From: an uncultured Kordiimonas sp.
GTDB taxonomy: Bacteria; Pseudomonadota; Alphaproteobacteria; Sphingomonadales; Kordiimonadaceae
Length of the DNA: 64,000 nucleotides
NCBI GenBank assembly: GCA_947503575.1
Contig: CANNDZ010000003.1
Span: 62,001 to 126,000 of the forward strand
Direction of reading: 5' to 3'
The position numbers were made by a program, and so were the translations under genes. The notes beneath the pieces are model-generated. The model did no database searches. It was not told the origin of the DNA and saw only the letters and a program-made list of their open reading frames with translations. Numbering within the stretch: position 1 is the first letter of the stretch; the number at the start of each line of letters is the position of its first letter. Below, piece by piece: positions 19,739 through 62,201 of this stretch.

Positions 19739-21499
19739 ATGGTCGAATTGAATGAGCAAAACACTGTTACACCAACGGTGACGCCAACTCTCGATCCTTC
19801 ACTGGAAAGACGGTATTCCGACTTCGATACGCTTGTTGATGCTGTCGAATACGCTGCAAAAGGCGTGCGCGGCGCCAACTTTTTTAACGCACGCGGCGAC
19901 GTTATCGACGTTATCACGTGGAAAGAAGTGCGGGACCGTGGAGAAGCCATTGGCCGTAAGCTGGTCGGCATGGGTTTTCAAAAAGGTGACCGCATCGCCT
20001 TGATCGCCGAAACAAGCGCCAATTTTGTCTGCTTTTTTGTTGGGTGCCAGTATGCCAGCGTTCTGCCGGTGCCCCTACCCTTGCCAACATCGTTCGGCGG
20101 TAAAGAAGGGTACGTCTCCCAACTGCGGATGCAGATGGAAAGCTGCAAGGCTAATGGCTTGATGGCGCCCGATTTCATGAATGAAATTGTCGAGCAGGCG
20201 ACTGACGGCCTCGACCTAAGGTTTAAAGGTGATATCAACGCCTTCATGGCAACAGATGCCGAGGGCGAGGTGGTTCTGCCGACCCCGGATGATCTGGCCT
20301 ATCTTCAATATTCATCGGGCAGCACCCGCTTTCCGCACGGCGTCTCGGTAACTCATCGGTCGCTGATGTCCAACACGCATGGTATGGGATATCATGGTGT
20401 TCACCTGGAAGACGATGACCGCTGTATTTCTTGGTTGCCGTTTTATCATGACATGGGGCTTGTCGGCACGCTGCTAACAACCATAACCTGTCAGGTATCG
20501 GTTGACTTTATCCCAACAGAAGAATTTGCCCGCCGGCCCCTCAGTTGGTTGCGTGTTATCAGCGCGAATAAAGGCACTATTACCTACAGCCCAACCTTTG
20601 GGTTCGACATTTGCACCCGCCGCGCCGCGATGCGCGCCAGTGCGCTTGAAGGCCTGGATCTTTCCAGCGTGCGCGTTGCCGGTATCGGCGCAGAAATGAT
20701 CCGTCCTGAAGTTATGAAAGAATTTCAGGAAACGTTCGGCCAGATCGGGTTTTCCTACAATGCATTCCTGCCAAGTTACGGACTGGCGGAATGTACACTG
20801 GGCGTAAGCTTTGGTGAAGTTGGCAAAGGCATACAGGTTGATCTGATCGAAGAAGCCGCGTTGACCGGCGACCGACATGTTCTTGTGAACGGATCAGGCG
20901 AAAACCGCATGCGCGAGGTTGTTAACTGCGGCAAGCTTTTACCAGAGTATGAAATCGAAATTCGCGACGAAGGGGACACCCCCCTGCCTGACCGCAAGGT
21001 TGGTCGTGTGTACCTGCGCGGTGCATCCGTAATGCGGGAATATTTCAATGACCCTGAAACAACACGAGAAGTCCTGAGCCCAGAAGGTTGGCTCGACACC
21101 GGCGACATGGGTTACATGAAAGACGAATGCATCTATATTGTTGGCCGCGCCAAGGATATGATTATTGTTAATGGTCGTAACCACTGGCCTCAGGATATCG
21201 AATGGGCAGCAGAACAGGTTGATGGCCTTAAAAAGGGCGATGTGGCTGCAGTTTCAATACCCGGCGATAACGCAGAAGAAGTACCGTTGATTTTGGCTCA
21301 ATGTCGCATTTCCGACGCGGCAGAGCGGGTTAAACTTGTCGATGCGTTAAAAAAGCAAGTTCAGGCAGAAACTGGCGTGAATTGCATCGTCGAATTGGTG
21401 CCACCCAAATCCCTGCCACGAACATCCTCTGGTAAACTCAGCCGAACAAAGGCCCGCAACCAGTATTTATCTGGCGACCTGCAGGCCATCGCAAGCTAA
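19739..21499 (+). CDS. aasR: Fatty acyl-AMP ligase / acyl-ACP synthetase for sphingolipid synthesis
   Basis: 586 residues of the adenylate-forming family. The phosphate loop is YSSGSTRFPHGV, with His where most members have Lys. SYGLAECTLG, GWLDTGDMGYM and the C-terminal catalytic Lys in PRTSSGKLSRTKAR are intact. In Caulobacter the equivalent gene (aasR) sits in the same order with cerR, acpR and spt and charges a dedicated ACP with fatty acid. Here it opens the four-gene operon, 10 bases before cerR. It acts in the cytoplasm to supply acyl-ACP to serine palmitoyltransferase. The role is inferred from synteny; sequence alone says acyl-AMP ligase. Confidence 0.85.
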   Translation: MVELNEQNTVTPTVTPTLDPSLERRYSDFDTLVDAVEYAAKGVRGANFFNARGDVIDVITWKEVRDRGEAIGRKLVGMGFQKGDRIALIAETSANFVCFFVGCQYASVLPVPLPLPTSFGGKEGYVSQLRMQMESCKANGLMAPDFMNEIVEQATDGLDLRFKGDINAFMATDAEGEVVLPTPDDLAYLQYSSGSTRFPHGVSVTHRSLMSNTHGMGYHGVHLEDDDRCISWLPFYHDMGLVGTLLTTITCQVSVDFIPTEEFARRPLSWLRVISANKGTITYSPTFGFDICTRRAAMRASALEGLDLSSVRVAGIGAEMIRPEVMKEFQETFGQIGFSYNAFLPSYGLAECTLGVSFGEVGKGIQVDLIEEAALTGDRHVLVNGSGENRMREVVNCGKLLPEYEIEIRDEGDTPLPDRKVGRVYLRGASVMREYFNDPETTREVLSPEGWLDTGDMGYMKDECIYIVGRAKDMIIVNGRNHWPQDIEWAAEQVDGLKKGDVAAVSIPGDNAEEVPLILAQCRISDAAERVKLVDALKKQVQAETGVNCIVELVPPKSLPRTSSGKLSRTKARNQYLSGDLQAIAS

Positions 21500-21509
21500 T
21501 CCGGAAAGC

Positions 21510-22463
21510 ATGGTAAAACAGTCCAAAAAAACGGCGACGCAAACAATTGCGTTGACCGGTGCAACAGGTTTTGTCGGCGGCCATACCCTGACTGCGCTGT
21601 GCGAGGCAGGCTATCACGTCAAAGCGCTTACGAGACGGCAACAGCTAGACATGCCCGGTGTTACGTGGATAGACGGGTCCCTGACTGATGGTGAAAGCCT
21701 GGCAAAACTGGTTGAAGGCGCAGATGTTCTGGTCCATCTGGCGGGTTTAACAAAAGCAATAACACGGGACGATTTCTTCGATATCAATGTTGCAGGCAGC
21801 AAAACGCTTTTCCAGGCGGCCCAAACCGCCAACGTCAAGCACGTGGTTCATGTTTCCAGCCTTGCGGCCCGGGAGCCACGTTTGTCACACTACGGCGCAA
21901 GCAAAGCAGGCACAGAATTATTGTTAACGGCCAGAAAATGGTCATTTAGCTGGTCCATCATACGCCCGCCGGCCATTTATGGGCCCGGCGACACAGAAAT
22001 ACTAAAGCTGTTCAAGGCAACGAAATACGGCTTTCTCCCGGCACCGGGAAGCAAGGCGAACAGATTTTCCATGATCCATGTCGCAGACCTTGCCCGTGCG
22101 TTGGTTTCGGCGTGTGACGGCAGTAACAAACAAGCCGTACTGGAAATTGACGACGGCACGCCAGCCGGTTATGCGATAAAAGATGTGGTGGCCTCGCTGC
22201 CAGACAGCAATACCAAAAACACTAAAACTGTGCCTGTACCCTTTGCCCTATTGGGTGTTGTCGGCGGTTTTAATGACCTTCTGGCACGGATGCTGTCAAA
22301 ACCGTTCATGTTGACGCTCTCGACCGCGCGCTATCTTTGTCACCCGGATTGGACAGTCAAGGAAGCCAGGCGTTTTAAACACAAAGGCTGGTTGCCACAA
22401 TTCGATCTTAAAGCCGGCTTAAAAGACACGCTCGACTGGTATCGCAAAAATGATCTATTGTGA
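21510..22463 (+). CDS. cerR: NAD(P)-dependent ceramide reductase, extended SDR
   Basis: 317 residues. The nucleotide loop is ALTGATGFVGGHTL, and the catalytic Tyr/Lys pair is in HYGASKAGTE, with PPAIYGPGDTEI downstream as in extended short-chain dehydrogenases. By position between the acyl-ACP synthetase and the ACP it matches CerR of Caulobacter, which reduces the 3-oxo group of the sphingoid backbone, there acting after N-acylation. General annotation would be NAD-dependent epimerase. The ATG follows CCGGAAAGC. Confidence 0.85.
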   Translation: MVKQSKKTATQTIALTGATGFVGGHTLTALCEAGYHVKALTRRQQLDMPGVTWIDGSLTDGESLAKLVEGADVLVHLAGLTKAITRDDFFDINVAGSKTLFQAAQTANVKHVVHVSSLAAREPRLSHYGASKAGTELLLTARKWSFSWSIIRPPAIYGPGDTEILKLFKATKYGFLPAPGSKANRFSMIHVADLARALVSACDGSNKQAVLEIDDGTPAGYAIKDVVASLPDSNTKNTKTVPVPFALLGVVGGFNDLLARMLSKPFMLTLSTARYLCHPDWTVKEARRFKHKGWLPQFDLKAGLKDTLDWYRKNDLL

Positions 22464-22539
22464 TACAAAACATGTAAATATATGAGCAGGCAAGAAGGGT
22501 CCGTATTCCCGGACACCGATGCAGGAAAGAGCGAGCATT

Positions 22540-22779
22540 ATGGCTAAACCGGAAACACTGGAAACAATATACGGCTTGATCGCGCCTATTAATAAAAAAG
22601 GTGTAGAGCTAAAACCTTCCAGCACTTTCGCATCCGATCTGGAATTGGACAGCTTGACTGTGATGGATCTGGTTGCCGATATCGAGGATGAATTCGATAT
22701 CGTCCTGCCGCTAAACATGCTGCCTGACCTGGAAACAATTGAACAAGTTGCTGACGCTGTCGAAAAAATCGTAAGCTGA
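22540..22779 (+). CDS. acpR: Dedicated acyl carrier protein
   Basis: 79 residues from MAKPETLE. The phosphopantetheine Ser is in DLELDSLTVMDL, followed by acidic helix II (EDEFDIVLP). It is shorter and more diverged than housekeeping AcpP and lies 15 bases before the serine palmitoyltransferase gene. In Caulobacter the equivalent (AcpR) carries the acyl chain used by Spt. An ATG seven codons upstream (22519) is possible, but AGGAAAGAG sits well for the chosen start. Confidence 0.88.
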   Translation: MAKPETLETIYGLIAPINKKGVELKPSSTFASDLELDSLTVMDLVADIEDEFDIVLPLNMLPDLETIEQVADAVEKIVS

Positions 22780-22794
22780 GCCGAGGATTTCACC

Positions 22795-23991
22795 GTGGAT
22801 TTATTGGATAAGTTTGACTCTATCGTAGAGTTGCGATCTTCGCTGCCTTTTGAAAAAGCAGACCCCTTTAAAGTTGTTATCGAGGAAGTAATCTCGGAAA
22901 CAGAAGCCATTATTGGTGGGCGGCACACCATTCTTGCCGGCACCAACAATTATATGGGCATGACGTTTGACGAAGGCGCAATTGAAGCCGCAAAAGCGGC
23001 ACTTGATGATTTTGGTACCGGCACCACAGGTTCGCGCGTGCTGAATGGCACCTATGGTGGCCATAAGGCCCTTGAGGCAGCAATCGCCGACTTTTACGAC
23101 ATGGAACACTGCATGGTGTTTTCGACCGGTTATCAGGCCAATTTAGGCATGATTTCGGCGCTGGGTGGCAAAGATGATTATGTCATCATAGACGCCGATA
23201 GCCATGCCTCCATTTATGACGGCTGTTCCATGGGGAATGCGACCATTGTTCGCTTTAAACATAACGACCCTGAAAACCTGGAACGGCGACTAAGACGTTT
23301 ACCAGAAGAAGCCGGTAAACTGTTGGTTGTAGAGGGTATATACTCGATGCTGGGTGATGCCGCACCGCTGAAAGAACTGCTAGAGGTTGGTAAAAAATAC
23401 GGCTGTATGACACTGGTGGATGAAGCCCATTCAATGGGCTTTTGCGGTGAAAATGGTCGCGGCGTTGCCGAACAGCTTGGTGTTGAAGACCTGGTTGATT
23501 TTTATCTTGGTACTTTCTCCAAATCGGTAGGGACAGTGGGTGGTTTTGCCGTATCCAACCATCCGAAATTTGACGTTCTGCGCTTTGTCAGCCGCCCCTA
23601 TATTTTCACGGCAAGCCTGCCGCCCAGTGTGGTGGCGTCTGCAACCAAATCAATCGAAGCGATTAAGCGCAGTGGCAATCGTCGGGCCCATCTTTGGGAA
23701 AATGCCCGCCAGTTGCACACAGGCCTGAAGTCTGCTGGTTTTAAAATGTGCACGGAACAAGCGGAAAGTCCGATTATCGCGGTTCACTTGCCTGACGTGA
23801 TGATGGGAACCCGGTTTTGGGAACAGCTGTTGATTGAAGGCGTATATGCCAATATGGCGGCACCACCAGCAACACCGGCGGGTATGTTCCTGTTGCGTAT
23901 TAGCGTATGTGCGCAGCACACATCCGAACAGATTGACGAAATCATTGCCCGGTTCAAAAGCACCGCAGCAGCTGTTGGCCTCGACGTTTAG
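22795..23991 (+). CDS. spt: Serine palmitoyltransferase (alpha-oxoamine synthase)
   Basis: 398 residues of the alpha-oxoamine synthase family. Key features are GTTGSRVLNGTYGGHKALE, the PLP-stacking and aspartate region LVDEAHSMGFCG and the Schiff-base Lys in GTFSKSVGTVGGF. The family also includes KBL and BioF, but the adjacent ACP and sphingolipid genes point to Spt, which joins serine with acyl-ACP to give 3-oxo-sphinganine with loss of CO2. The GTG start follows GAGGA. It is the last gene of the operon and a terminator hairpin follows 28 bases later. Confidence 0.9.
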   Translation: MDLLDKFDSIVELRSSLPFEKADPFKVVIEEVISETEAIIGGRHTILAGTNNYMGMTFDEGAIEAAKAALDDFGTGTTGSRVLNGTYGGHKALEAAIADFYDMEHCMVFSTGYQANLGMISALGGKDDYVIIDADSHASIYDGCSMGNATIVRFKHNDPENLERRLRRLPEEAGKLLVVEGIYSMLGDAAPLKELLEVGKKYGCMTLVDEAHSMGFCGENGRGVAEQLGVEDLVDFYLGTFSKSVGTVGGFAVSNHPKFDVLRFVSRPYIFTASLPPSVVASATKSIEAIKRSGNRRAHLWENARQLHTGLKSAGFKMCTEQAESPIIAVHLPDVMMGTRFWEQLLIEGVYANMAAPPATPAGMFLLRISVCAQHTSEQIDEIIARFKSTAAAVGLDV

Positions 23992-24019
23992 TAAACCACA
24001 CCAGAAAAATTCAGGAATT

Positions 24020-24048
24020 GGGTGCTTTATTTAAAAGCACCCTTTTTT
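24020..24048 (+). terminator. Rho-independent terminator of the aasR-spt operon
   Basis: GGGTGCTTT pairs with AAAGCACCC around loop ATTTA, then TTTTTT. The stop codon of the converging minus-strand gene lies inside the stem. Confidence 0.85.
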
Positions 24049-25001
24049 CTAAGGCCCCAGAATAAAACCACACCTGCAATGATAGGGTGCTTGCGCATCC
24101 AGTCCTTAATCTCTATGTCCACGCCAGAATGGCGGCGGATTTTCCATGCCAGATAGTCAATGCCGCCATCGAACGTCATTGACGCCTTTATCAGGCGCAA
24201 GAAACTAACCACTTTGCCATTGGTGCGGCGCAGAAACCACGCCAGTTTGGCTGTAAAATTGGCGGTACGCGCGGGTTGCGTCGCGGGCTGTGATTGTTGA
24301 TTGCCATCGTCTGTTATGCCCATGGTCGCCAAGGCCACCGGGGTCAGATCATCATAACGTTGTTGGTCCAACAGATAAATCTCCAGCCCTTTGCCCCCCC
24401 GTTCGGACCGCAACTCCGCAGCGTAAGTTGCTTCAAAAGCAGCAACCCACAGGTCCCGAGAGCGTGTCGCCCAAGGCTGAAGGTCCAGTAGGTTGGACAG
24501 CATGGTTGTCACGCTTGTGGCAACCGCCTCTGCCATGGTGTTTTGAACATCGTCCGATTGTGCACACAGGAGCATGCAAGGTTGGCTGAAACGCGCCCAG
24601 ATAGATACATTGAGACACGATGGGCTGCACCGGAACTTAAAATCCTTTGCTGACACTACGGCATATTTTGACCGCACAGTGACCCCGTCAACATCCATTT
24701 CGTGGTAAAAGACATTTGGTGGCAATATCTGGTTAGCAACCGCCAGCCATGCACCGTTGTAGGCGTTATGGTAATCGTCAACAATGACGTAGAAATCGAG
24801 GATTTTGTCTTCTATCTCTCCGGTCCGCAAGCAGGATCCATAAAACAACACGCCCAGCACACTGTCGCCGTAGCGGGACGCAATGTCTTTGGCGGCAACA
24901 GTTACAGCGGCAGGAACCGACCTGTCCCATTCTGACAGAATAAAAGTGCGTAGTTCTGTTGCGGAAGAGTTTCCGCTGTCTTTGACGGGATCATCTGTCA
25001 C
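24027..25001 (-). CDS. Degenerate nucleotidyltransferase-like protein of the sphingolipid locus
   Basis: 324 residues, not firmly recognised. Residues ~45-75 read GVLFYGSCLRTGEIEDKILDFYVIVDD, which (split across the motif) recalls the G-S...D-x-D signature of nucleotidyltransferases, except that the second acid is Tyr. The middle has several Cys (FRCSPSCLN), and the C terminus (RKHPIIAGVVLFWGLRKKGAFK) ends in a short hydrophobic stretch with basic flanks, perhaps membrane-associated. The GTG start lies 9 bases after the lipid kinase stop, so the two genes form an operon. A role in building the head group after ceramide phosphorylation is possible; it may correspond to one of the Caulobacter cpg genes next to spt, but that needs alignment. 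Confidence 0.55.
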   Translation of the reverse strand: MTDDPVKDSGNSSATELRTFILSEWDRSVPAAVTVAAKDIASRYGDSVLGVLFYGSCLRTGEIEDKILDFYVIVDDYHNAYNGAWLAVANQILPPNVFYHEMDVDGVTVRSKYAVVSAKDFKFRCSPSCLNVSIWARFSQPCMLLCAQSDDVQNTMAEAVATSVTTMLSNLLDLQPWATRSRDLWVAAFEATYAAELRSERGGKGLEIYLLDQQRYDDLTPVALATMGITDDGNQQSQPATQPARTANFTAKLAWFLRRTNGKVVSFLRLIKASMTFDGGIDYLAWKIRRHSGVDIEIKDWMRKHPIIAGVVLFWGLRKKGAFK

Positions 25002-25010
25002 AGCGATTGC

Positions 25011-26012
25011 CTACTTTCTGAATGTCACAAACGTGAGTGCCCGGTCACCGCGCAGCACCACAGGAACACCCGGCGTAGGTTGATAGATTTCACCATCAAG
25101 GGTCACAGGGTCGGTACCTTCAACCCGCACTTCATTGTTGGTTCTGACGTGCAAACCACGGACATAACTGACGCCGTAACGGCCCGTCAAAAGCGCCACA
25201 AAAGACCGCAAAAGCGTTGATGCGCCTGCTTCTGCCGCAGAAAACCTTAGACCACCCTTATTGTCTTTGACGTAGGGCTTTAAACCAAACAACAGCCGAT
25301 TGAGTGTTGTGGCAATAACAACGGAATAGCGACCCTGAATGCGGGCACTACCCGGTACTGTGATCGACATGGGGTCAGAGACCATCAAACCTTTGTTGCG
25401 GGACAGGCCAAGGGCTGATGTGATGAGTTTGTAGGCTGACCATATATGCGCCACAGCGTTTGGCAGCCCTTTGGCATAAGCGTTTTCACGGCACCAAAAA
25501 ATGCCCCGAACGATGCCTGCAGTGCCAAAAAAAGTGCCAACTTTAGGTGGTGAGCCGTCCCCCATATCCATTTCGATAAGGTTGCGCCTGGTCAGTGCGT
25601 TCGGTAAATCACCAGACTGTGCCAGTTTCAGCAGCTTTTTAAGGACCTTGGCGGGTTTACCTTTAAAGCCCAGATCAGCCGCTGTCATATTGGTTTTGCC
25701 ACCGGGCAAAAACGCAATCGGTGGAATGACCGTGAAGGGATTTTTGTGCAGCAAGGACGCCAGAGCCGCACCGATGGTACCATCGCCGCCATTGATGATC
25801 AGCATTGCGGGGTTTGCTTTGGCAAATAGTTCCATCGCATCCTGCAGCGTTTCCATACCATCCAGTTCATAATGGACAACATTTGCGCTGGATTCGACAA
25901 TAGCGCGGATTTCATCGAGCGAGCGCGCATTGGTCGTGCTAAGTGGGTTGGAAATCATCACAACCAGCGGCACAACCGCCCCACTATTCACTGTTTTTGT
26001 ATCGACCTGCAT
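25011..26012 (-). CDS. Lipid kinase of the diacylglycerol kinase family, probable ceramide kinase
   Basis: About 333 residues. The DAGK catalytic signature is seen in LIINGGDGTIGAALASLL, with a following FLPGGKTNMTAADLG and the C-terminal VTLDGEIYQPTP. The family phosphorylates a lipid hydroxyl with ATP. A related kinase beside spt in Caulobacter phosphorylates ceramide, and the position here between spt and the other sphingolipid genes supports the same activity. MQVDTK is taken as start; an upstream in-frame GTG at 26057 lacks a ribosome site. A terminator separates it from the DUF2141 gene upstream, so it probably has its own promoter near 26020-26060. Confidence 0.75.
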   Translation of the reverse strand: MQVDTKTVNSGAVVPLVVMISNPLSTTNARSLDEIRAIVESSANVVHYELDGMETLQDAMELFAKANPAMLIINGGDGTIGAALASLLHKNPFTVIPPIAFLPGGKTNMTAADLGFKGKPAKVLKKLLKLAQSGDLPNALTRRNLIEMDMGDGSPPKVGTFFGTAGIVRGIFWCRENAYAKGLPNAVAHIWSAYKLITSALGLSRNKGLMVSDPMSITVPGSARIQGRYSVVIATTLNRLLFGLKPYVKDNKGGLRFSAAEAGASTLLRSFVALLTGRYGVSYVRGLHVRTNNEVRVEGTDPVTLDGEIYQPTPGVPVVLRGDRALTFVTFRK

Positions 26013-26059
26013 TGGACGACCACTCCGGCTCGTATCGCGAGTTTTGGCAAAATGCACCG

Positions 26060-26093
26060 TTTAAACAAAACAAACGGGACCAAAAGGCCCCGT
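26060..26093 (-). terminator. Terminator after the DUF2141 gene
   Basis: On the minus strand ACGGGGCC pairs with GGTCCCGT (one G-U) around loop TTTT and is followed by TTGTTTTGTTT. Confidence 0.7.
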
Positions 26094-26144
26094 ATTTGCT
26101 TATTTTGCAGGCATGCATACCCGCAAACCCAAATTATATCAATA

Positions 26145-26771
26145 TTAGCGTCGTTTCAGCTTACGCCGCTTCTCTTTCTTTTTTTCGTCACCACCAAATA
26201 CATATTTCATATCAATGGTGTGCTGGCTGACGCCCGCTGCCGCCGTAAACATAACCTCTTCACCGTCAGGGGGACCAAGCGACAGTTTAGGGTTGTTAGA
26301 GAAACCAAACCCTTCGGAAAATATGTCTGCGCGCCCGTTTGAATTTTTATCATGCATCACAACCAGCGCGTATGTACCGGGCGATGGCAGAGGCACACAT
26401 AAAGTGGGTTCGTCGCTGCCATCCAGCGGCATGTCCACACGAACAAGCTTTTTGCCCTTTTCCAGAAATTCATCAGGGTCAGAGCTGTATATTTGAGCCC
26501 GAACACGACCTTCAGTGGTTTGCAGGCCCTGTACGAAAACCTCCAGCCCAGCCTCGCCTTCTGTGAATTCGCAAGCGCCGTCACGGCGTTTTTCATGTGT
26601 AATAATCGTCGCTTCCGGCCGAACTGCTTCTGACCGGTTTGCCTCCGGGCCGTCATCAGCTGTCGCCATTGCGGCGCCATTTATCAGGGTGAAACCGGCC
26701 ATAAGGCACGCGACGGATGCTTTCACCGCCGTGCAGCGTCGCAGCACAAAGTCAAACATACGTTGGTCCAT
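26145..26771 (-). CDS. Exported DUF2141 protein with basic tail
   Basis: About 208 residues. A signal peptide (VACLMAGFTLINGAAMA) precedes a DUF2141 beta domain: GLEVFVQGLQTTEGRVRAQIY, YALVVMHDKNSNGRAD, FGFSNNPKLSLGPP. The protein ends in an unusual highly basic stretch, GGDEKKKEKRRKLKRR. DUF2141 proteins are periplasmic or surface proteins of unknown function. It lies inside the sphingolipid island, divergent from lptF, so a link to lipid handling at the envelope is possible; the basic tail could contact acidic lipid head groups (inference). Confidence 0.72.
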   Translation of the reverse strand: MDQRMFDFVLRRCTAVKASVACLMAGFTLINGAAMATADDGPEANRSEAVRPEATIITHEKRRDGACEFTEGEAGLEVFVQGLQTTEGRVRAQIYSSDPDEFLEKGKKLVRVDMPLDGSDEPTLCVPLPSPGTYALVVMHDKNSNGRADIFSEGFGFSNNPKLSLGPPDGEEVMFTAAAGVSQHTIDMKYVFGGDEKKKEKRRKLKRR

Positions 26772-26939
26772 TTGCAATCAAGACATCCACAGATACTAAA
26801 AAGCTGCGACATGGTGGCAGAAATATGGCTCTATACCGGATAAACATGTGATTTCCCATCTTTTTTCTGCCATCATTAGTGGATCAAACAAATGGAATTG
26901 TTTCTTGAAACGAAGCTCCAACAGGTGTAGCGCCATCCT

Positions 26940-28166
26940 ATGATTGCCCGACCTTTCATGACACGAATTGATCGTTACGTGCTTCGGCAGGTGCTGATGC
27001 CCATGTTCACAACTTTGGGTGTTGCAGCTTTGTTGCTGATTCTGGAACGTATGCTGAAACTGTTTGACTTCGTCGTTAATCAGGGCGGGCCTGTTGAAGT
27101 TGTGTTTCGCATGCTGGCCAATCTGACGCCCCATTACATGGGGCTGGCCCTGCCTGTTGGCCTATTGTTGGGTGTGTTGGTGGCTTTTCGGAAGATATCC
27201 CTGTCCAGCGAGTATGACGCCATCACATCATCGGGTACCAGCCTGACGCAGCTTGTGCGCCCCCTACTGCTGCTGGCAGCGTTTCTGGCGGTTATTAACA
27301 CCCTTTTGGTTGGCTGGGTGCAACCCCACAGCCGGTATGCCTACCGTGGCTTGGTGTTTGACCTGAGGAGCGGGGCACTGGGTGCCAGCATCCGCGTTGG
27401 CGAATTTGTTAAAATTGGTGATGATATTACCCTGATGATTGAGGAATCCCGTAATCAGGGTGCAGAATTAGGGGGAATTTTTCTGGAACGACGCGATGAG
27501 CGCAGCAGCATTGCCGTAACGGCAGAACGCGGCGGATTTTTTGCAACAGACGACGACCAGACAATCCTGCTGCGTCTATTTAACGGTGTTTTGGTGGACC
27601 TGAACGAAAGCCAGAACAAACCAAGAGTGCTGAATTTCGAGCGGCAAGACCTTACCATCAAACTGCCCGAACGCGAGGTTTTCCGCGAACGCGGTGGCCA
27701 GGAACTGGAAATGACACTGCCGGAATTGTTTGTTGAAATGAATAATCCCCTCCAATCTGTTGAAGATCGCGCTGCCTTCGAGGGGAATTTTCATTGGCGA
27801 CTTATGCACAGCTTCAGCTTTTTTATTCTGCCTTTCCTCGCAATTCCTATGGGTATCACCAACAAACGCACCGGACGTGGCACCGGGATCGTCATCGGGC
27901 TATCCCTTCTGATCGTCTATAACGAATTGATGGAAGGTATGGAAACGGCAGTGAAAGGTGGGGCATCCCCTTATCTGACGATCTGGGCGCTCTTTGCCGG
28001 ATTCGCTTTTTTAAGCCTGTTTTTCTTCCGTGTGTCTGCCTTTAAGGCGGGCGGTGAACCCTTGGCCTACATTGATGCGATTGTCGGCACTGTTGCCGGG
28101 CCCATCAAACGACTGGGCCGCAAGGTTATGGGCATGGGAGAAACGAATACGGGAGATAGCGCATGA
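26940..28166 (+). CDS. lptF: LptF-like permease (YjgP/YjgQ family)
   Basis: 408 residues. MTRIDRYVLRQVLMPMFTTLGV is the family N terminus; there are transmembrane helices at both ends and a periplasmic beta-jellyroll region between (EESRNQGAELGGIFLERRD). LptF with LptG forms the transmembrane part of the LptB2FG extractor that lifts lipopolysaccharide from the inner membrane. Here the pair stands among sphingolipid genes with no lptD, surA, pdxA or ksgA beside it, so it may be either the housekeeping copy or a paralogue serving sphingolipid. An internal ATG at 26958 would also fit the family start. It overlaps lptG by four bases. Confidence 0.85.
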   Translation: MIARPFMTRIDRYVLRQVLMPMFTTLGVAALLLILERMLKLFDFVVNQGGPVEVVFRMLANLTPHYMGLALPVGLLLGVLVAFRKISLSSEYDAITSSGTSLTQLVRPLLLLAAFLAVINTLLVGWVQPHSRYAYRGLVFDLRSGALGASIRVGEFVKIGDDITLMIEESRNQGAELGGIFLERRDERSSIAVTAERGGFFATDDDQTILLRLFNGVLVDLNESQNKPRVLNFERQDLTIKLPEREVFRERGGQELEMTLPELFVEMNNPLQSVEDRAAFEGNFHWRLMHSFSFFILPFLAIPMGITNKRTGRGTGIVIGLSLLIVYNELMEGMETAVKGGASPYLTIWALFAGFAFLSLFFFRVSAFKAGGEPLAYIDAIVGTVAGPIKRLGRKVMGMGETNTGDSA

Positions 28167-29332
28167 TGCTTCGCGCTGTACGCCGCCTGTTTATACCGTC
28201 ACGCACGCTCGCACGGTATATGGTACGCATGCACCTCAGTCGCTTTTTTGGTATCCTGCTGGGCCTTACCGTGATTTTGCAGATGCTGGACCTGCTTGCT
28301 ACGGCAGATGATGTTCTGGCCGCCGACGGCGCGACATGGGCCTCTATTCTGATTTACGTTAGCCTGCGCGCGCCGCAACTGATGACACTGTTCATACCTT
28401 TTGCCGCCCTGCTGGCCACAATCCTGACTTTGGCAACCCTGAACCAAAGCAGTGAAGTGACTGTAATGAAAGCGAGCGGTCTTTCATCGCATCGCATCCT
28501 GTTGCCGCTGGGGATCGCATCACTAATTATCGGGATTGCCCACTTTACCTTCAACGAGACAATCGTTGTGGATGCCAATGCTGACCTGGAATACTGGCAA
28601 CAAAACGACTATGCTATTGACCTGCCTGACAACCCTGACCTTGCTGGTCGCACATGGCTGAGGGAAGGCAACAGTATTGTGCTTGTGGAGTCCGTCAGTA
28701 CGGTGCGCAACCGTGTGGTCCTTGACGAGGTATCTATCTTTGAACGCGACAATCTGGGCCGGGTTCAGGCCATGGTGAAAGCCGATTTCGCCTGGTACCA
28801 GAACGGTGCCTGGACCTTGCATGAAGTCAGACGATTTGATGCCAACAGCCACCTGTTGTCGGTTACACCAACCGTTCCATGGTCAATCCCGACACGTCCT
28901 GAGCGGTTCTTAGCCCTAAATGTAAAGCCTGATCAGGTGCCCTTTGGTGCACTATGGACTTCCATGCAGCGTCTGCGTGAGGAAGGACTGTCAACAGACC
29001 GCTTGATGACCAGTTTCCTGCAAAAAATTGCGGCACCAGCGTCGACGTTGCTTATGCCCATTCTAGCCGCCTTGGCCGCGTTTGGTGTGTCCCGCGCTGG
29101 TGGGCTGGTGCTTAGGAGCGTATTTGGTGTGGCGTTAGGCTTCAGCTTCTTCGTCGCTGATAACTTCATGCTGGCAATGGGGGAATTTGGCGTGGCCCCG
29201 CCGTTTCTGGCGGCTTGGGCTCCGTTTTGCTTGTTCCTGTTGGTTGGCTACACGGTCATCTTCTACACAGAAGAAGGTCGTCCTCAGCTAAAGCATGCGC
29301 AAGCTAAACCAGCGCCTAAATCCGCTGAATAG
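28163..29332 (+). CDS. lptG: LptG-like permease (YjgP/YjgQ family)
   Basis: 389 residues. TLARYMVRMHLSRFFGILLGL opens the first helix; EVTVMKASGLSSHRILLPL is the coupling-helix region that contacts LptB. A periplasmic domain (WLREGNSIVLVESVS) and C-terminal helices follow, ending in an Ala/Lys/Pro-rich tail. It partners with the preceding LptF-like protein (ATGA overlap). Next comes a flippase gene after 9 bases. The ATPase LptB is not in the window. Confidence 0.85.
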   Translation: MMLRAVRRLFIPSRTLARYMVRMHLSRFFGILLGLTVILQMLDLLATADDVLAADGATWASILIYVSLRAPQLMTLFIPFAALLATILTLATLNQSSEVTVMKASGLSSHRILLPLGIASLIIGIAHFTFNETIVVDANADLEYWQQNDYAIDLPDNPDLAGRTWLREGNSIVLVESVSTVRNRVVLDEVSIFERDNLGRVQAMVKADFAWYQNGAWTLHEVRRFDANSHLLSVTPTVPWSIPTRPERFLALNVKPDQVPFGALWTSMQRLREEGLSTDRLMTSFLQKIAAPASTLLMPILAALAAFGVSRAGGLVLRSVFGVALGFSFFVADNFMLAMGEFGVAPPFLAAWAPFCLFLLVGYTVIFYTEEGRPQLKHAQAKPAPKSAE

Positions 29333-29341
29333 GGCTTGTAG

Positions 29342-30895
29342 ATGGCCACCCCCCAGATGCCAGAGGACAAATTCTCGCAAGAAGCTGCTGGTGATATCAA
29401 ACAGGTTGCCGGGGGCGCTGGCCTTGCCTTCATCGGCCGTCTAGGGGCGCTGATTGAAGCCGTATCTGTTGTTGTGTTCACATGGGCCTATGGTGCAGAA
29501 ACCTTTGGCTTGTTCGCTGTGTTGTGGAGCTACGTAAAAGTCACAACTGCTCTTTCCGATGCCGCAATGACCACATCGCTGCAGCGCTTTGTTCCCCGCG
29601 TTTCCAAGGAACAGGAAGCAAATGTTGCCGGCTTTGCCCTCAAACTCAGTTTTATCATCGCAACATTATTTGCTTTAGCCGGGACGTATTTCGCGCCAGC
29701 CCTATCCAGTATTATCAATGTTGGTGACACAGACCAAAAGCACCTTACCGACGTAATCCGGCTGTATGTCTGGGTTCTACCTTTCTGGACTGCGGTCGAA
29801 GTTGGCACAGCCGCTATCCGTGCGCGGCGCAAATTTGGCCCCGAAATTCGGGTGCGCATTTTCTATGAACAATTTTTAAGACTGATCGCAGCTGTCATAT
29901 TTTTTTACTTAGGATTAAATACTTATGGCCTTTTTCTTGCGCATTTGTTGAGCGTGATTTTGGCCGCCCTACTCGCGCTGCGGCTGGTTGCAAGGCACTA
30001 TGACATGCGGGCAGTATTGGCTGCGCCAATGACCGGGCCTCTGGCTAAAGAAATGCGCCAATATGGCTTTTCAGTCATGCCATCAAACCTGATCAAAAAA
30101 CTGTTCAGTGAATTTCCTGTGATGATGCTGAATTTTGTTTTACCCGGCGGGGCGGGTGCGGCGGCTGGCGGATATTATTCTGTGGCACGGAAACTTGCCA
30201 GCGCATTGCAGGTTGTACGCCTGGCATTTGAATATGTCATGGCACCGCTTGCAGCGGAAAAATCCGGCAATCATGACAAACATCGCCTGCAAAATATGTA
30301 CGCCTTTGCAACACGCCTTTCTGTATGTTTGGCCCTGCCCTTCGGTGCAGCGCTTTATATGGCACGCGGTGATATCCTGTCTGCGCTGGAGCCTGAGTTT
30401 CAGGCAGCCGCAACTGCGATTGCGATACTGGTCGCTGGCCGAGTGTTGGAGGCCGCCAGTGGGCCATCACAGTCAATCATTGAAATGCTGGGCCACCGGT
30501 TCCTGCCACCCATTAACGGACTTATTGGCCTGTCGATCTTTGTCGGCCTTGGCTGGACGTTGATCCCGACACAAGGCGTTACAGGTGCGGCCATTGCGGC
30601 AGCGACAGGCCTTAATATCACTGCATACCTTGCCTTTATCCAAAGTGGCGTGATGTTCAAGCTGGTGCCCTACAACCGCGACTTCTTGAAACCCGTGGCC
30701 ATATCGCTTATGTCTGCGGGCGCGTTGGTGGCCTTTGCTGAAACCGGACCAAAGCTGCCGTCGCCAGCGGGCCTTATAATTGCCATACTCGGCCTTATTG
30801 TCGCATTGCTTTTGTTGGTGCGGTATGGCCTTAAAAGAGAAGATGCAATGGCACTGGGTAAACCCGGCATATGGCTTAGCCGGGCCACCACGTGA
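29342..30895 (+). CDS. Wzx-type flippase (MOP superfamily)
   Basis: 517 residues with about 14 hydrophobic segments. The start of the first helix GLAFIGRLGALIEAVSVVVFTWAYG and the ...FVPR... loop resemble polysaccharide/O-antigen flippases. It should move a lipid-linked head group or lipid across the inner membrane. Being co-transcribed with lptFG and followed by a desaturase and the ceramide synthase gene, its cargo could be a sphingolipid or a glycosylated ceramide, but no glycosyltransferase gene is in the operon. Specificity cannot be read from sequence. Confidence 0.8.
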   Translation: MATPQMPEDKFSQEAAGDIKQVAGGAGLAFIGRLGALIEAVSVVVFTWAYGAETFGLFAVLWSYVKVTTALSDAAMTTSLQRFVPRVSKEQEANVAGFALKLSFIIATLFALAGTYFAPALSSIINVGDTDQKHLTDVIRLYVWVLPFWTAVEVGTAAIRARRKFGPEIRVRIFYEQFLRLIAAVIFFYLGLNTYGLFLAHLLSVILAALLALRLVARHYDMRAVLAAPMTGPLAKEMRQYGFSVMPSNLIKKLFSEFPVMMLNFVLPGGAGAAAGGYYSVARKLASALQVVRLAFEYVMAPLAAEKSGNHDKHRLQNMYAFATRLSVCLALPFGAALYMARGDILSALEPEFQAAATAIAILVAGRVLEAASGPSQSIIEMLGHRFLPPINGLIGLSIFVGLGWTLIPTQGVTGAAIAAATGLNITAYLAFIQSGVMFKLVPYNRDFLKPVAISLMSAGALVAFAETGPKLPSPAGLIIAILGLIVALLLLVRYGLKREDAMALGKPGIWLSRATT

Positions 30896-30923
30896 TACAA
30901 CAGTTTGAAGAATGATTTGATTG

Positions 30924-32030
30924 ATGCAAAAGGTTGCAACAGAACAGGACCAGATTGATGGACGGGTTTCTGAACCAGTCGTTTCTGGTGCTCACCCGGA
31001 AGCAGCGGACTTTCCCCTAAAGGAAGCCCGCAAGCTTGTGCGCGATCTGTGGCAACCAAACGCCCGCATTTACTGGACTGACTTCCCCATCAGCGCTTTT
31101 ATCGGTTGGGGTGCAGTGGCAGTAGCTGTGATGAGCCCGTTAGGGTCAATTATTCACATCGCGGCCTTGATCGTTGCAACCCTTGCACTGTACCGCGCTG
31201 TGATCTTCATCCATGAGCTCGCGCATTTCCGAAAAGGAACCTTTACCGGGTTCCGCAGGTTCTGGAACGCTACCTGCGGTATGCCTATGATGGTGCCTGC
31301 CTACACATATGCAGATGTGCATATTGATCATCACAAGCCGCAGCATTATGGCACCGAACAAGACGGGGAATATCTGCCATTTGCTGTTAACGAACCATGG
31401 AAGATTGTCGCCTTTGTCGCGCAAGCCTTTATTGTGCCGATACTTTTGGTGTTTAGGTATGCGATGTTGATGCCGCTGACCCTCATGATACCAGCGCTTC
31501 GCGACTATGTGTGGGAGCGCGCCAGCAGCCTGGTAATTGATTACACCTACATCCGGCCTCTGCCGAAAAAAGACCAGAAAGCTGGGTGGATGCTGGAAGA
31601 TGTGTTTACAGGCCTATACGCGTATGCCGCTTTCGGCTTGTGGTACGTTGATGTGCTGCCAACCATGTTTTTTGTTGTGTGGTATGTGGTGACGTTTGCA
31701 ATATTTGTTCTCAATGGTTTGCGCACGCTGGCAGCACACGCTTACCGAAATGGCGGCAGGGAACGCATGACCCAGCAAGCCGAGTTTCTCGACAGCGTCG
31801 ATGTCCCCGGCAACCGTTACATCTCGCCTCTGTGGGCCCCGGTTGGTCTGCGCTTTCATGCCACGCACCATCTGTTCCCCGGCATGCCCTATCATTCTTT
31901 GGAGAAAGCGTATTTCCGCCTGAAGGATGAATTGCCCGATAACCGGCTGTATCTAGCGGCTACCCGCAAGAACCTATGGGCAGCTGTTGCCCAATTGTGG
32001 CGCGAAGCCAAGGCGTCGCAAAAAAGCTGA
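30924..32030 (+). CDS. Membrane fatty-acid desaturase/hydroxylase-type di-iron enzyme
   Basis: About 368 residues with hydrophobic segments around three histidine boxes: HELAHF, HIDHH (with HYG after it) and HATHH (with YHSL after it). These bind a di-iron centre in membrane desaturases and hydroxylases. The position immediately before the ceramide synthase gene suggests it desaturates or hydroxylates a sphingoid base or its amide-linked acyl chain. ATG at 30924 is preferred to the TTG just before it. Confidence 0.82.
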   Translation: MQKVATEQDQIDGRVSEPVVSGAHPEAADFPLKEARKLVRDLWQPNARIYWTDFPISAFIGWGAVAVAVMSPLGSIIHIAALIVATLALYRAVIFIHELAHFRKGTFTGFRRFWNATCGMPMMVPAYTYADVHIDHHKPQHYGTEQDGEYLPFAVNEPWKIVAFVAQAFIVPILLVFRYAMLMPLTLMIPALRDYVWERASSLVIDYTYIRPLPKKDQKAGWMLEDVFTGLYAYAAFGLWYVDVLPTMFFVVWYVVTFAIFVLNGLRTLAAHAYRNGGRERMTQQAEFLDSVDVPGNRYISPLWAPVGLRFHATHHLFPGMPYHSLEKAYFRLKDELPDNRLYLAATRKNLWAAVAQLWREAKASQKS

Positions 32031-32105
32031 CGTACGTATCCATCTTGCAAAAAATCGCCAGTCCGCTATCCAAGGTCCAACTTGAACGCAACAAGGGGCA
32101 GCATT

Positions 32106-33248
32106 GTGGCTGAAAACAGCGTCAGTATCCGCCGTATCACAGATACCAAAGGCCTAAAGGACTTTGTCAATGTCACCCGCACCGTGTATGCGGATGACCC
32201 CAACTGGATTCAGCCGTTGATGATGGAGCGCATGGATGCCCTGCGCCCTGATAAAAACCCGTATTTTCAACATGCCGATGTTGCCATGTGGGTTGCAGAA
32301 CGCAGCGGCAAACAGGTTGGCCGGATCAGCGCCCAAGTCGATCATTTGGCGCAGGAAAAATGGGGCCCAAACCTTGGGCATTTCGGCTTTTTTGAAGCCC
32401 TAGATGAAGACACCGCAAATGCGCTGCTGAAAACGGCGGAGGACTGGCTGAAAGACCAGGGTATGGTCCGTATGCAGGGGCCATGGTCCCTATCAAGCGC
32501 AGAAGAAGTCGGCACTCTGGTGGATGGTTTTGATACACCGCCTTGTGTGATGATGCCCCATGGACGTCCGTCCTATGACGGCTGGCTGAACGGCCATGGC
32601 CTCACCAAAGCCAAAGATATGTTTGCTTATTCACTGGACCTGACTATCCCGATGCCGGACCGGGCGATGCGGATTGTCAAAATGGCACAAAAAAACAAAC
32701 GCGTGACCATGCGCCCGATTGATATGAAGCGCTTCGATGAAGAAGTCGAAATCGTGCTTGATATCTATAATGAAGCCTGGTCAGACAACTGGGGTTATGT
32801 GCCTTTTACGGAAGCCGAAGTGGCGCACGGCGCCAAAAGCCTGAAACCTGTCGTGAAACCCTACCGCACCTATATTTGCGAATATGACGGCGAACCGGTT
32901 GCCTTCATGCTGACCATCCCGGACGTGAACCACAAAATGCGCGATATAAACGGCAAATTGCTCCCCTTTGGCTGGGCGAAGCTCGCCTACCGGATGCTAA
33001 ACGGTAAAGAAGACCGCTGCCGTGTTCCCCTTATGGGCGTGCGGAAAAAGTTCCAGCGCGGGCCGCTTGGCGCCGCCATGTCCATGTGGATGATCGATGT
33101 GAGCCGCCAGCATGTGGAAGAACGCGGGGCTTATTGGGGCGAACTGGGATGGATTTTGGAAGACAATGACGGCATGCGCTCGATCCTCGAAGAAATCGGG
33201 TGCAAGGTCTATAAAACCTACCGAGTTTATGAAAAAGCCATTGGCTAA
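32106..33248 (+). CDS. bcerS: Bacterial ceramide synthase-like GNAT-fold acyltransferase
   Basis: About 380 residues. The start is a GTG seven bases after AGGGG, giving VAENSVSIRRITDTKGLKDF. The N-terminal half (VNVTRTVYADDPNWIQPL, NPYFQHADVAMWVAERSGKQVGRI) and the C-terminal half (WGYVPFTEAEV, YDGEPVAFMLTIPDVN, ELGWILEDNDGMRSILEEIG) are those of the large GNAT-like family that includes the Caulobacter ceramide synthase. That enzyme N-acylates 3-oxo-sphinganine. Together with aasR, cerR, acpR and spt it completes the known five-gene ceramide set, here 8 kb from spt, as in Caulobacter where it is also separated. Function is by synteny and family. Confidence 0.83.
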   Translation: MAENSVSIRRITDTKGLKDFVNVTRTVYADDPNWIQPLMMERMDALRPDKNPYFQHADVAMWVAERSGKQVGRISAQVDHLAQEKWGPNLGHFGFFEALDEDTANALLKTAEDWLKDQGMVRMQGPWSLSSAEEVGTLVDGFDTPPCVMMPHGRPSYDGWLNGHGLTKAKDMFAYSLDLTIPMPDRAMRIVKMAQKNKRVTMRPIDMKRFDEEVEIVLDIYNEAWSDNWGYVPFTEAEVAHGAKSLKPVVKPYRTYICEYDGEPVAFMLTIPDVNHKMRDINGKLLPFGWAKLAYRMLNGKEDRCRVPLMGVRKKFQRGPLGAAMSMWMIDVSRQHVEERGAYWGELGWILEDNDGMRSILEEIGCKVYKTYRVYEKAIG

Positions 33249-33307: not shown

Positions 33308-34117
33308 TTAGCTGTCTAACTGACAGCGGCCGCTATTCCGCCGATACTGTGGGTTACAAGACCAACTGTTGCCCGACGAACTGAGGTGCGCATTTTCCGG
33401 TAATTTGATTTCGGTACATAAGTCACCGTCCATCACATAACCCCGGTCACATTTCCATCCTTTGCCAAAGCTGCTGCCTGCCAGATACCCGTGTTTTGGT
33501 ACCGGGACCAGTTCACAGCGATCGCCAATCGCTTTGAAACCATGTAAGCATGACCATCTGTTTGGAAAAGCACTATCGTCGAAATAGCCGTTCTCTGGCA
33601 CGTCAATCTCAACACACCTGTTATCAACAGCTCTATAAGTCTTGAAGCAATCCCAGCCTTGCCCTCGGGAGGACTCTGTCAGGTAAGCATTTTCCGGCAC
33701 CTCGATTTGCGTACAAGCTTCATCTTGTTTGCGATAGCCGCGCGCGCACTGCCAGCGGTCGCCCCGCTCGACCAGAAATGCATTTGATGGAACCGTTATG
33801 GCAACACACGCCTGATTTTTCTCAACAAACCCGCGATGGCATTGCCACCCCTGGCCATAGGTTTTGTTAGTTGAAAAAGCATTTTCAGGCACTGTAACAG
33901 CCACACAAGCGTCTTCCTGCTCGCGAAACCCCACAAGGCATTCCCACCCACCACCAAAGCGTTTTGCTTCGGCGTTGGCGGGCACACCATCAGGGTTGCT
34001 TTGCGCCAATACGCTTGCAGCGGACATGACAAACAGAAAAACGAAACCTGCAGCTTGCCAGAACAATCGCGATGACGTCAGGAGCCGGTAAAACGGGTTG
34101 TATGCTGACTTTATCAT
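33308..34117 (-). CDS. Exported protein of seven Cys-pair repeats
   Basis: 269 residues. A signal peptide (FVFLFVMSAASVLAQ) is followed by about seven tandem repeats of ~32-35 residues, each with the pattern GWxCxxGFxxxxxxCxxxxVPxNAxL (for example GWQCHRGFVEKNQAC then VPSNAFL). Each repeat carries two cysteines about 13-14 apart that could form a small disulfide loop; 14 cysteines are expected in the mature protein. The last repeat is truncated after its second Cys. I do not recognise an assigned function. The start overlaps the stop of the helicase gene by four bases (ATGA), so it is probably co-translated. Confidence 0.75.
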   Translation of the reverse strand: MIKSAYNPFYRLLTSSRLFWQAAGFVFLFVMSAASVLAQSNPDGVPANAEAKRFGGGWECLVGFREQEDACVAVTVPENAFSTNKTYGQGWQCHRGFVEKNQACVAITVPSNAFLVERGDRWQCARGYRKQDEACTQIEVPENAYLTESSRGQGWDCFKTYRAVDNRCVEIDVPENGYFDDSAFPNRWSCLHGFKAIGDRCELVPVPKHGYLAGSSFGKGWKCDRGYVMDGDLCTEIKLPENAHLSSSGNSWSCNPQYRRNSGRCQLDS

Positions 34118-61743: not shown

Positions 61744-62201
61744 AGTCCCGAAGTGCTGCGCGTTTGATGCCGCTGGTGGCAAATCATGATGGCCTGGCCA
61801 AATCCGGGTGGCATGTCGCCAATTTCGTCAACTGTTGTCGGGCAGATAAAGTCAAACCAGCCATGTTCATTCGACATTTGAATATCGGTCTTTTTGGCTT
61901 TGGACTTTAAACGGGCTTCAAAAACGACAACCAACCGATCACCCAACGCCGCGTGATGTTTGACCCAGGATGCAACAAATTCAAACCGTTTTAATTTGAG
62001 ACCGGTTTCTTCCAGAACCTCGCGCTGCAGGGCCAGAAACAAATCCTCGCCCTCCTCAACTTTACCGCCCGGCAAGTCAACGATACCGCTGGTTTTACGC
62101 ATCAGCAGTATCTGACCATCTTTGGAAACCAGCACTGCCTTCGCAGAAACGGGCAGCTTCTTCAGCGTCTTTTTCTCTGATCCAATTTGCTGCCAGTACA
62201 T
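61740..62201 (-). CDS. NUDIX hydrolase
   Basis: 153 residues from MYWQQIGSEKK after GGGGAGA. The NUDIX box is complete: GGKVEEGEDLFLALQRE followed by VLEETGL. It hydrolyses a nucleoside diphosphate linked to another group; the substrate cannot be told. A frame extending 51 codons upstream is open but lacks a good ribosome site and family support. Confidence 0.87.
   Translation of the reverse strand: MYWQQIGSEKKTLKKLPVSAKAVLVSKDGQILLMRKTSGIVDLPGGKVEEGEDLFLALQREVLEETGLKLKRFEFVASWVKHHAALGDRLVVVFEARLKSKAKKTDIQMSNEHGWFDFICPTTVDEIGDMPPGFGQAIMICHQRHQTRSTSGL

Follow-up and report, generated by a model that had tools for sequence, protein, structure and literature searches.

The stretch of DNA analyzed here (64,000 nucleotides, positions 62,001 to 126,000 of contig CANNDZ010000003.1 in assembly GCA_947503575.1 of an uncultured Kordiimonas sp.; called the window below, with all positions counted from its first letter) contains a twelve-gene island. 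This is probably a sphingolipid locus, and its host, a Kordiimonas-like alphaproteobacterium, has apparently replaced its lipopolysaccharide (LPS) by a sphingolipid. We are fairly confident that this organism makes no LPS and that its Lpt system serves the sphingolipid. A broader proposal, in which the Lpt bridge was turned into a sphingolipid bridge across the whole order and the lipid is made via CDP-ceramide by a Tam41-like CpgC protein, is put forward tentatively, with somewhat more doubt than confidence. The ceramide gene set itself is of a known kind; what is added lies in its setting in an apparently LPS-free lineage and in the proposed CpgC reaction. Genes were named from a list of the open reading frames (ORFs) in the window and from protein-family searches (Pfam and NCBIfam); genomes and loci used for comparison carry G and L numbers, and papers are cited by accession.

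The genome that contains the window (3.6 Mb in 10 contigs, with a completeness rating of 100%) gave no match to LpxC, LpxB or WaaA, and control genomes gave matches in the same searches. It was found to have exactly one LptF/LptG pair (all 10 candidates were scored), and this pair is in the window, with lptF at positions 26940 to 28166 (TIGR04407, 234 bits) and lptG at 28163 to 29332 (TIGR04408, 278 bits), both on the plus strand. LptD is also present, outside this locus. The same picture was obtained in 147 sampled genomes of the order: neither LpxC nor LpxB was matched in any of them (the LpxC controls were matched), CerS was found in 141 (123 of the 124 good genomes) and LptD in 141. A sphingolipid maker without LPS has been described in Sphingomonas koreensis (PMC11324152).

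After the result for the genome of the window, and before the other genomes were counted, we set the prediction that two lipids go with two LptF/G pairs and one lipid with one pair. A class-wide sample contained CerS in 41 of 289 genomes and LpxC in 243 of 289. Four or more LptF/G genes were present in 15 of the 18 genomes having both CerS and LpxC and in 0 of the 23 having CerS but no LpxC, of which 20 had two such genes, one (G244) had three, and G066 and G280 had none (the zero for G280 is inferred from its absence in the match list). The difference between these two groups gave a Fisher p of 1.3e-8, or 1.1e-4 when families were counted once (10 of 13 versus 0 of 12), and CerS and LpxC were negatively linked, LpxC being absent from 23 of 41 CerS-positive versus 23 of 248 CerS-negative genomes (p 5e-11); all three values ignore shared ancestry. 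The LptF/G pair was within about 10 kb of cerS in 20 of the 23 LpxC-negative CerS genomes. This copy-number pattern appears in no title or abstract opening among the top-ranking literature matches on LPS-less sphingomonads and Lpt, the sphingomonad terms looked for are absent from PMC3087551 (2010, on Kdo2-lipid A evolution), and Kordiimonas is unmentioned among the top-ranking matches on its lipids.

To identify which pair had stayed, a concatenated LptF+LptG tree was made from 55 of the 69 loci with matches. The tree contained a 12-row alphaproteobacterial LPS-type clade and a 40-row sphingolipid-locus clade, both with SH-aLRT support of 100. All 21 of the 21 pairs from LpxC-negative CerS genomes, including that of the window, were in the sphingolipid-locus clade, and four genomes (G123, G175, G271 and G230) had one pair in each clade. 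Clade labels were assigned by neighborhood: sphingolipid-locus pairs were those with sphingolipid genes in the fetched stretch or in the match list of the same small contig, and LPS-type pairs were the remaining ones or those of CerS-negative genomes; the pair of locus L108 (G192), the sole pair of its genome and about 25 kb from cerS, was labeled as sphingolipid-locus beforehand without such neighbors. The tree does not contain the second pairs of G026, G158 and G256; six near-identical Kordiimonas rows and L063 were omitted by choice, and L051, L083, L096, L123, L132, L136 and L140 because of missing or short partners. Most simply, this would mean that the pair of LPS type disappeared along with lipid A and that the one of sphingolipid type was kept. 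The sphingolipid-side pair of Escherichia coli BL21 and the pair of G246 grouped together outside both clades, hinting at a second origin. Among the top-ranking literature matches, LptF2/LptG2 are mentioned by name only in PMC11324152.

Five genes for ceramide synthesis are present in the island as complete ORFs, and we are highly confident that they have been correctly identified. Four of them form one plus-strand run, separated by 10, 55 and 15 bases: aasR (19739 to 21499), encoding a fatty acyl-AMP ligase or specialized acyl-acyl carrier protein (ACP) synthetase; cerR (21510 to 22463), a short-chain dehydrogenase/reductase (SDR)- or epimerase-type reductase of 3-oxo-sphinganine or oxo-ceramide; acpR (22519 to 22779), a specialized ACP; and spt (22795 to 23991), serine palmitoyltransferase (SPT). 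The fifth, cerS (32082 to 33248, plus strand), encodes a bacterial ceramide synthase, a predicted tandem-GNAT N-acyltransferase, and closes a second plus-strand run, lptF-lptG-flippase-desaturase-cerS, with gaps of −4 to 51 bases. An earlier note on this DNA had recognized a ligase, SDR, ACP and alpha-oxoamine synthase in one operon, with a GNAT-like protein 8 kb away, and had identified them with the five gene types of Caulobacter. This was borne out by the gene positions, by matches to BL21 products and by the order, which is that of CC_1165-1162 and CC_1154 in PMC11324152. The five genes are not one operon. Its description of the 13.5-kb island as a ceramide set is right as to the five genes but incomplete, since the island holds head-group and export genes too.

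The family assignments of these products were as follows. AasR scored 804.5 bits against the fatty acyl-AMP ligase family NF006624 (cut-off 600), and its best match in the PDB was the Fatty Acyl-Adenylate Ligase 3pbk (514 bits). CerR matched PF01370 at 83 bits and contains the Rossmann motif GATGFVGG and YGASK. AcpR, whose gene adjoins spt, matched PF00550 (PP-binding) at 43 bits and has the phosphopantetheine serine, Ser45 of LDSL, which is shared by the ACPs of BL21 and G012. Using tblastn against BL21, identities of 44% (AasR), 36% (CerR, over 302 amino acids), 35% (AcpR), 49% (Spt) and 42% (CerS, over 375 amino acids, to YghO) were obtained; the SDR and CerS products match proteins of the BL21 sphingolipid locus. 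The BL21 Spt and AcpR have been studied by experiment, and the reductase and acyltransferase there were assigned by homology (PMC9386255). CerS matched no Pfam family at E 0.001 and no GNAT family in Pfam up to E 5. Its AlphaFold model (33 sequences, pLDDT 91.9) had tandem GNATs as the best Foldseek matches (7q3a, E 3.6e-15), with N-myristoyltransferases also among the matches (E 3.8e-9), and in this predicted fold CerS is a tandem GNAT.

The identity of Spt bears on whether the product would be ceramide at all. Spt scored 608.8 bits against the SPT model NF047599 (cut-off 500) and 619.9 bits against the alpha model NF047603 (under its cut-off of 670), and the bioF and glycine C-acetyltransferase (KBL) models gave 318.9 and 317 bits, about half of the SPT score. 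Among solved structures, the scores were 559 bits for SPT 2x8u, which we take to be the S. wittichii enzyme, 228 for KBL 1fc4, 184 for cysteate acyltransferase 28eh and 150 for BioF 1bs0. The segments DADSHASIYDG, DEAHSMGF and GTFSKSVGT, which presumably contain the pyridoxal phosphate-site residues, align with solved SPTs. A KBL, BioF or cysteate acyltransferase, yielding a product other than ceramide, belongs to the same superfamily and matches at lower scores, but these identities were rejected on the lead of NF047599 and 2x8u, and such a product is very improbable. Best matches to KBL/BioF or to unrelated SDR or GNAT families, which the earlier note had named as an outcome that would overturn its proposal, were not obtained. 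Ceramide production by this organism is supported in the form of gene potential. Separately, relatives of CerS were seen beside Spt in loci L064, L066-L072, L074, L075, L077, L079 and L081, the record titles of which name Rhodothermales, Gemmatimonadota, Zixiibacteriota, Ignavibacteriae, Chloroflexi and others; no AasR or LptF/G match was found within the compared stretch of these records.

Three minus-strand genes sit between the two plus-strand runs, and their identification was made by comparison with a Phenylobacterium locus (L065, Caulobacteraceae) used as a stand-in for that of Caulobacter crescentus, no sequence of which was compared. The gene order in L065 is spt, a gene like that at 24027, a kinase, a CDP-alcohol phosphotransferase (PF01066, in the CpgA position), an unassigned ORF, DUF2141, lptF, lptG and cerS. 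On the basis of this synteny, the genes at 24027 to 25001, 25011 to 26057 and 26145 to 26777 are the counterparts of cpgC, cpgB and CC_1157, respectively, the CpgB and CpgC identities being those that synteny and family indicate. The predicted lipid (ceramide) kinase matched PF00781 DAGK_cat (E 3.6e-13), contains the motif GGDGT, and gave a weak match to the PDB lipid kinase 2bon (E 0.0024); CpgB is a proven ceramide kinase in which a GGDG motif was noted (PMC10331486). The kinase and the CpgC-like gene were adjacent and on the same strand in 39 of the 39 loci having both, 13 of which are Kordiimonas-type, and in further loci the kinase was found alone in one and the CpgC-like gene alone in four.

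The mechanism of CpgC is called unidentified in PMC12275187 and PMC13228409, the former reporting that cpgC is needed genetically after ceramide-1-phosphate. We had guessed a resemblance to Tam41 from a motif before a fold search was done. An AlphaFold model of CpgC from an alignment of 19 orthologues had a pLDDT of 87 and a pTM of 0.85, and the top three Foldseek matches among 350,542 chains were Tam41 chains 6ig4_A, 6ig2_C and 6ig2_A (E 7.6e-7, 1.5e-6 and 1.9e-6). Tam41 is a peripheral membrane cytidine diphosphate-diacylglycerol (CDP-DAG) synthase whose C-terminal helix is cationic (PMC7018664); of the three acidic residues usual in the nucleotidyltransferase fold it has retained one, basic residues hold CTP, and bacterial Tam41 proteins exist (PMC11646218). 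Across 35 CpgC sequences, residues Y54, G55, D69, K112, R137, E196 and E200 were invariant, and the single invariant Asp, D69, together with K112 and R137 would be compatible with the Tam41 pattern, on a comparison of conserved residues. The likeness to this mitochondrial and bacterial CDP-DAG synthase lies in the predicted fold, whereas CpgC has no match to its sequence family and would use ceramide-1-phosphate rather than phosphatidic acid. This suggests that formation of CDP-ceramide from ceramide-1-phosphate and CTP would be the natural reaction after the kinase, and we somewhat favor CpgC as a CTP:ceramide-1-phosphate cytidylyltransferase. CDP-ceramide, the product of what would be a bacterial liponucleotide step, is not mentioned among the top-ranking literature matches, either from 2022 on or of any year.

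The CpgA-position protein of L065 had no match in the genome of the window. In the 147 genomes of the order, it was matched in 55 at E 0.001 and in 19 at E ≤ 1e-60; none of the latter belongs to the family of the window's genome, in which the best match was partial (G346, 4.9e-20). Because CpgA is missing, CPG2, the lipid whose head group is double, is improbable, and the CPG2 interpretation is disfavored; a ceramide phosphoglycerate (CPG)-type rather than CPG2-type lipid is expected from this gene content. No CC_1158-, CC_1153- or CpgD-like gene was found in the cluster in a search of the window, the rest of the genome not being covered; the weak matches in the window to CpgD (E 3.7e-4) and CC_1153 (E 0.09) both lie within a MobA-like protein at about 17 kb. 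In another set of loci (L099, L100, L101, L115 and L142), each sphingolipid cluster contains two ORFs with a CDP-alcohol phosphotransferase motif, one of them close to either the kinase or the CpgC-like gene and the other between lptG and cerS; the two may each serve a different head-group step.

Taken together, the genes would allow the following pathway, the chemistry and transport of which we infer. AasR would load a free fatty acid onto AcpR, and Spt would join the acyl-AcpR with serine to give 3-oxo-sphinganine. CerS would N-acylate and CerR would reduce, in an order that is disputed (PMC11087976), to give dihydroceramide, the acyl chain of which may be hydroxylated by the desaturase-like enzyme. 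CpgB would phosphorylate ceramide to ceramide-1-phosphate, and CpgC with CTP would convert this to CDP-ceramide, from which an alcohol (glycerate, if Caulobacter CPG is a guide) would displace CMP by means of some CDP-alcohol phosphotransferase. The flippase-like protein, LptF/LptG and the LptD encoded elsewhere would then carry the lipid to the outer leaflet.

Transport of the sphingolipid by the Lpt bridge has to be weighed against two other explanations of the LptF/G genes. If this were an ordinary Caulobacter-type phosphosphingolipid locus in an organism in which divergent enzymes still produce some lipid A, with one LptF/G pair serving both lipids, the wide occurrence of LptD in the order would be expected, and Caulobacter does keep both LPS and sphingolipid (PMC11324152); but the complete lack of LpxC and LpxB in the order with working controls, the lack of WaaA in the genome of the window, and an LPS-type LptF/G clade without any row from an LpxC-negative CerS genome make this quite unlikely. 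It is also unlikely that, next to ceramide genes that are real, LptF/G and the flippase are general envelope genes that happen to adjoin them, the sphingolipids being exported otherwise: the proximity of the pair to cerS, a copy number that tracks LPS and sphingolipid status, and the presence in BL21 of an LptF/G pair beside spt besides the one adjoining pepA all speak against it, although the accessible parts of the cited papers contain no transport experiment and CerS occurs in G066 and G280 without LpxC and without LptF/G. Replacement of LPS by a sphingolipid carried by Lpt remains our preferred interpretation of these data, and the results that weigh against it, and in the next paragraph against the CpgC step, are these. 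The searches for lipid A and Lpt genes covered LpxC, LpxB, WaaA, LptD and LptF/G and did not extend to LpxA, LpxD, LpxK, LptA, LptB, LptC or LptE. In the class sample (n = 289), at most six LptF/G candidates per genome were scored, so that undercounts are possible. The copy-number rule is broken by one of the 248 CerS-negative genomes (G022), which has four LptF/G genes, by G035, G079 and G184, which have CerS and LpxC but two LptF/G genes (the CerS of G184 being a 148-residue partial match), and by G066 and G280; the latter two (loci L116 and L117) have aasR-cerR-acpR-spt near CerS, and no explanation given here covers them. In a CerS tree (40 rows, G184 omitted), there were five changes of LpxC status and one independent pair on well-supported branches, and an independent-contrast test of LpxC versus LptF/G number was underpowered (sign test p 1); therefore, the Fisher values overstate the evidence. 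Furthermore, CerS is lacking in 23 of the 46 sampled genomes without LpxC, and so a sphingolipid does not follow from LpxC loss alone.

For CpgC, the alternative is that the protein in this position is a nucleotidyltransferase-fold enzyme with another job, transferring an adenylyl or other nucleotidyl group elsewhere, and we regard this as a substantial possibility that nevertheless falls short of likely. In its favor, and against our reading, CpgC matched no Pfam family, 19 members gave no nucleotidyltransferase or Tam41 match up to E 10, and PDB profile searches with 19 and with 35 CpgC sequences yielded no Tam41 match. Because these searches did not link the two families at the sequence level, we call CpgC Tam41-like in its predicted fold and not a member of the Tam41 family. 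The structural agreement is also moderate, with TM-scores of 0.43-0.45 by query and 0.50-0.52 by target, a root-mean-square deviation of 9.5-9.7 and an identity of 15-16%; the invariant E196 and E200 besides D69 are not accounted for by this reading, and a motif scan of the window found no CDP-alcohol phosphotransferase, leaving the step after CDP-ceramide without a candidate. The next class in Foldseek was aminoglycoside nucleotidyltransferases (E 1.9e-4, TM-scores of 0.27-0.36 at ranks 4-10 and later up to 0.38), but Tam41 was ahead of it by about two orders of magnitude in E and also in TM-score. Both the invariable adjacency of the CpgC-like gene to the kinase and the reported genetic requirement for cpgC after ceramide-1-phosphate are likewise at odds with a job elsewhere and in accord with a CDP-ceramide-forming CpgC.

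How sphingolipids get to the outer membrane is, according to PMC11324152, not known, and a lineage with a single LptF/G pair and no LpxC is a clean setting in which to test sphingolipid transport without LPS. The Tam41 fold would give the CpgC step, between ceramide-1-phosphate and ceramide phosphoglycerate, a concrete reaction that can be assayed, and the copy-number pattern of two pairs for two lipids and one pair for one lipid could be a genomic marker of LPS replacement.

The locus was compared with known systems. That of Caulobacter (CC_1168-CC_1152) contains the ceramide genes CC_1165-1162 and CC_1154, CpgC (CC_1161), CpgB (CC_1160), CpgA (CC_1159), LptF2/LptG2 (CC_1156/1155) and a candidate flippase, CC_1166 (PMC11324152). 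It shares with the window aasR-cerR-acpR-spt, cpgC, cpgB, the DUF2141-position gene, lptF2-lptG2 and cerS in the same order, the gene list being that of PMC11324152 and the order and families those of L065. It differs in that the genome of the window lacks a CpgA match, a second, LPS-type LptF/G pair and LpxC, that CC_1158, CC_1153 and CpgD have no clear counterpart in the window, and that flippase-like and desaturase genes lie here between lptG and cerS. E. coli BL21(DE3) ECD_02850-02854 is similar in having the five ceramide genes (yghO and four beside it), a neighboring LptF/G pair and a neighboring protein annotated as a lipopolysaccharide biosynthesis protein. In contrast, its sphingolipid-side LptF/G is outside the alphaproteobacterial clade, it also has an LPS-type pair next to pepA, and tblastn found no kinase or CpgC counterpart in its 37-kb stretch (L042). 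Zymomonas mobilis and Sphingomonas have sphingolipid genes, with CPG but not CPG2 genes in Zymomonas, but these are described as scattered (PMC11324152), whereas they form one island here. Rhodothalassium salexigens has been reported to be without LPS and to have dihydroceramides (PMC11762602).

In the genome collection, from which the window's own record was possibly excluded, CerS had Kordiimonas-type proteins as its nearest relatives, with identities of 90% (an uncultured Kordiimonas), 90% (an unplaced alphaproteobacterial metagenome-assembled genome), 84% (K. aquimaris), 78% (K. marina), 76% (K. laminariae) and 60% (Pseudokordiimonas caeni). All 13 of the Kordiimonas-type loci compared (L044-L056) contained spt, lptG and cerS together with the kinase, flippase and cpgC-like genes; lptF and the DUF2141 gene were each present in 12 of them, a desaturase gene in 7 and aasR in 4, aasR being upstream of the compared stretch in most of the others. 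This recurrence indicates that the layout is not due to chance.

The two genes between lptG and cerS are on the plus strand. The polysaccharide-synthesis/flippase-like membrane protein (29342 to 30895; PF01943, 35 bits) is a possible CC_1166-like flippase, compared by family and without alignment to CC_1166, and the gene was present in L044-L058 and L111-L113, or 18 of 105 loci (L042-L146). The fatty acid desaturase/hydroxylase-like protein (30921 to 32030; PF00487, 103.7 bits) is possibly an acyl-chain hydroxylase, and a desaturase also adjoins cerS in L062, L063 and L102-L104. The DUF2141 protein (minus strand; PF09912, 77 bits) has a position that is kept in alphaproteobacterial sphingolipid loci of genomes with LpxC (for example, L088, L091 and L146) and without it (for example, L111-L113); a pathway link of CC_1157 was called improbable in PMC11324152.

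Directly downstream of cerS and convergent with it, positions 33308 to 34117 (minus strand) encode a Cys-rich repeat protein (EGF_MSP1_1, four stretches, 39.8 bits), relatives of which with 48-59% identity are present in the Kordiimonas-type loci L044, L045 and L047. Elsewhere in the window, an XdhC-like protein followed by a fused MoCF_biosynth/MobA-like protein forms a molybdenum-cofactor pair (15108 to 17668, plus strand), and positions 7562 to 9517 (minus strand) encode a metalloprotease-like protein with a weak Peptidase_M10 match and RTX calcium-binding repeats.

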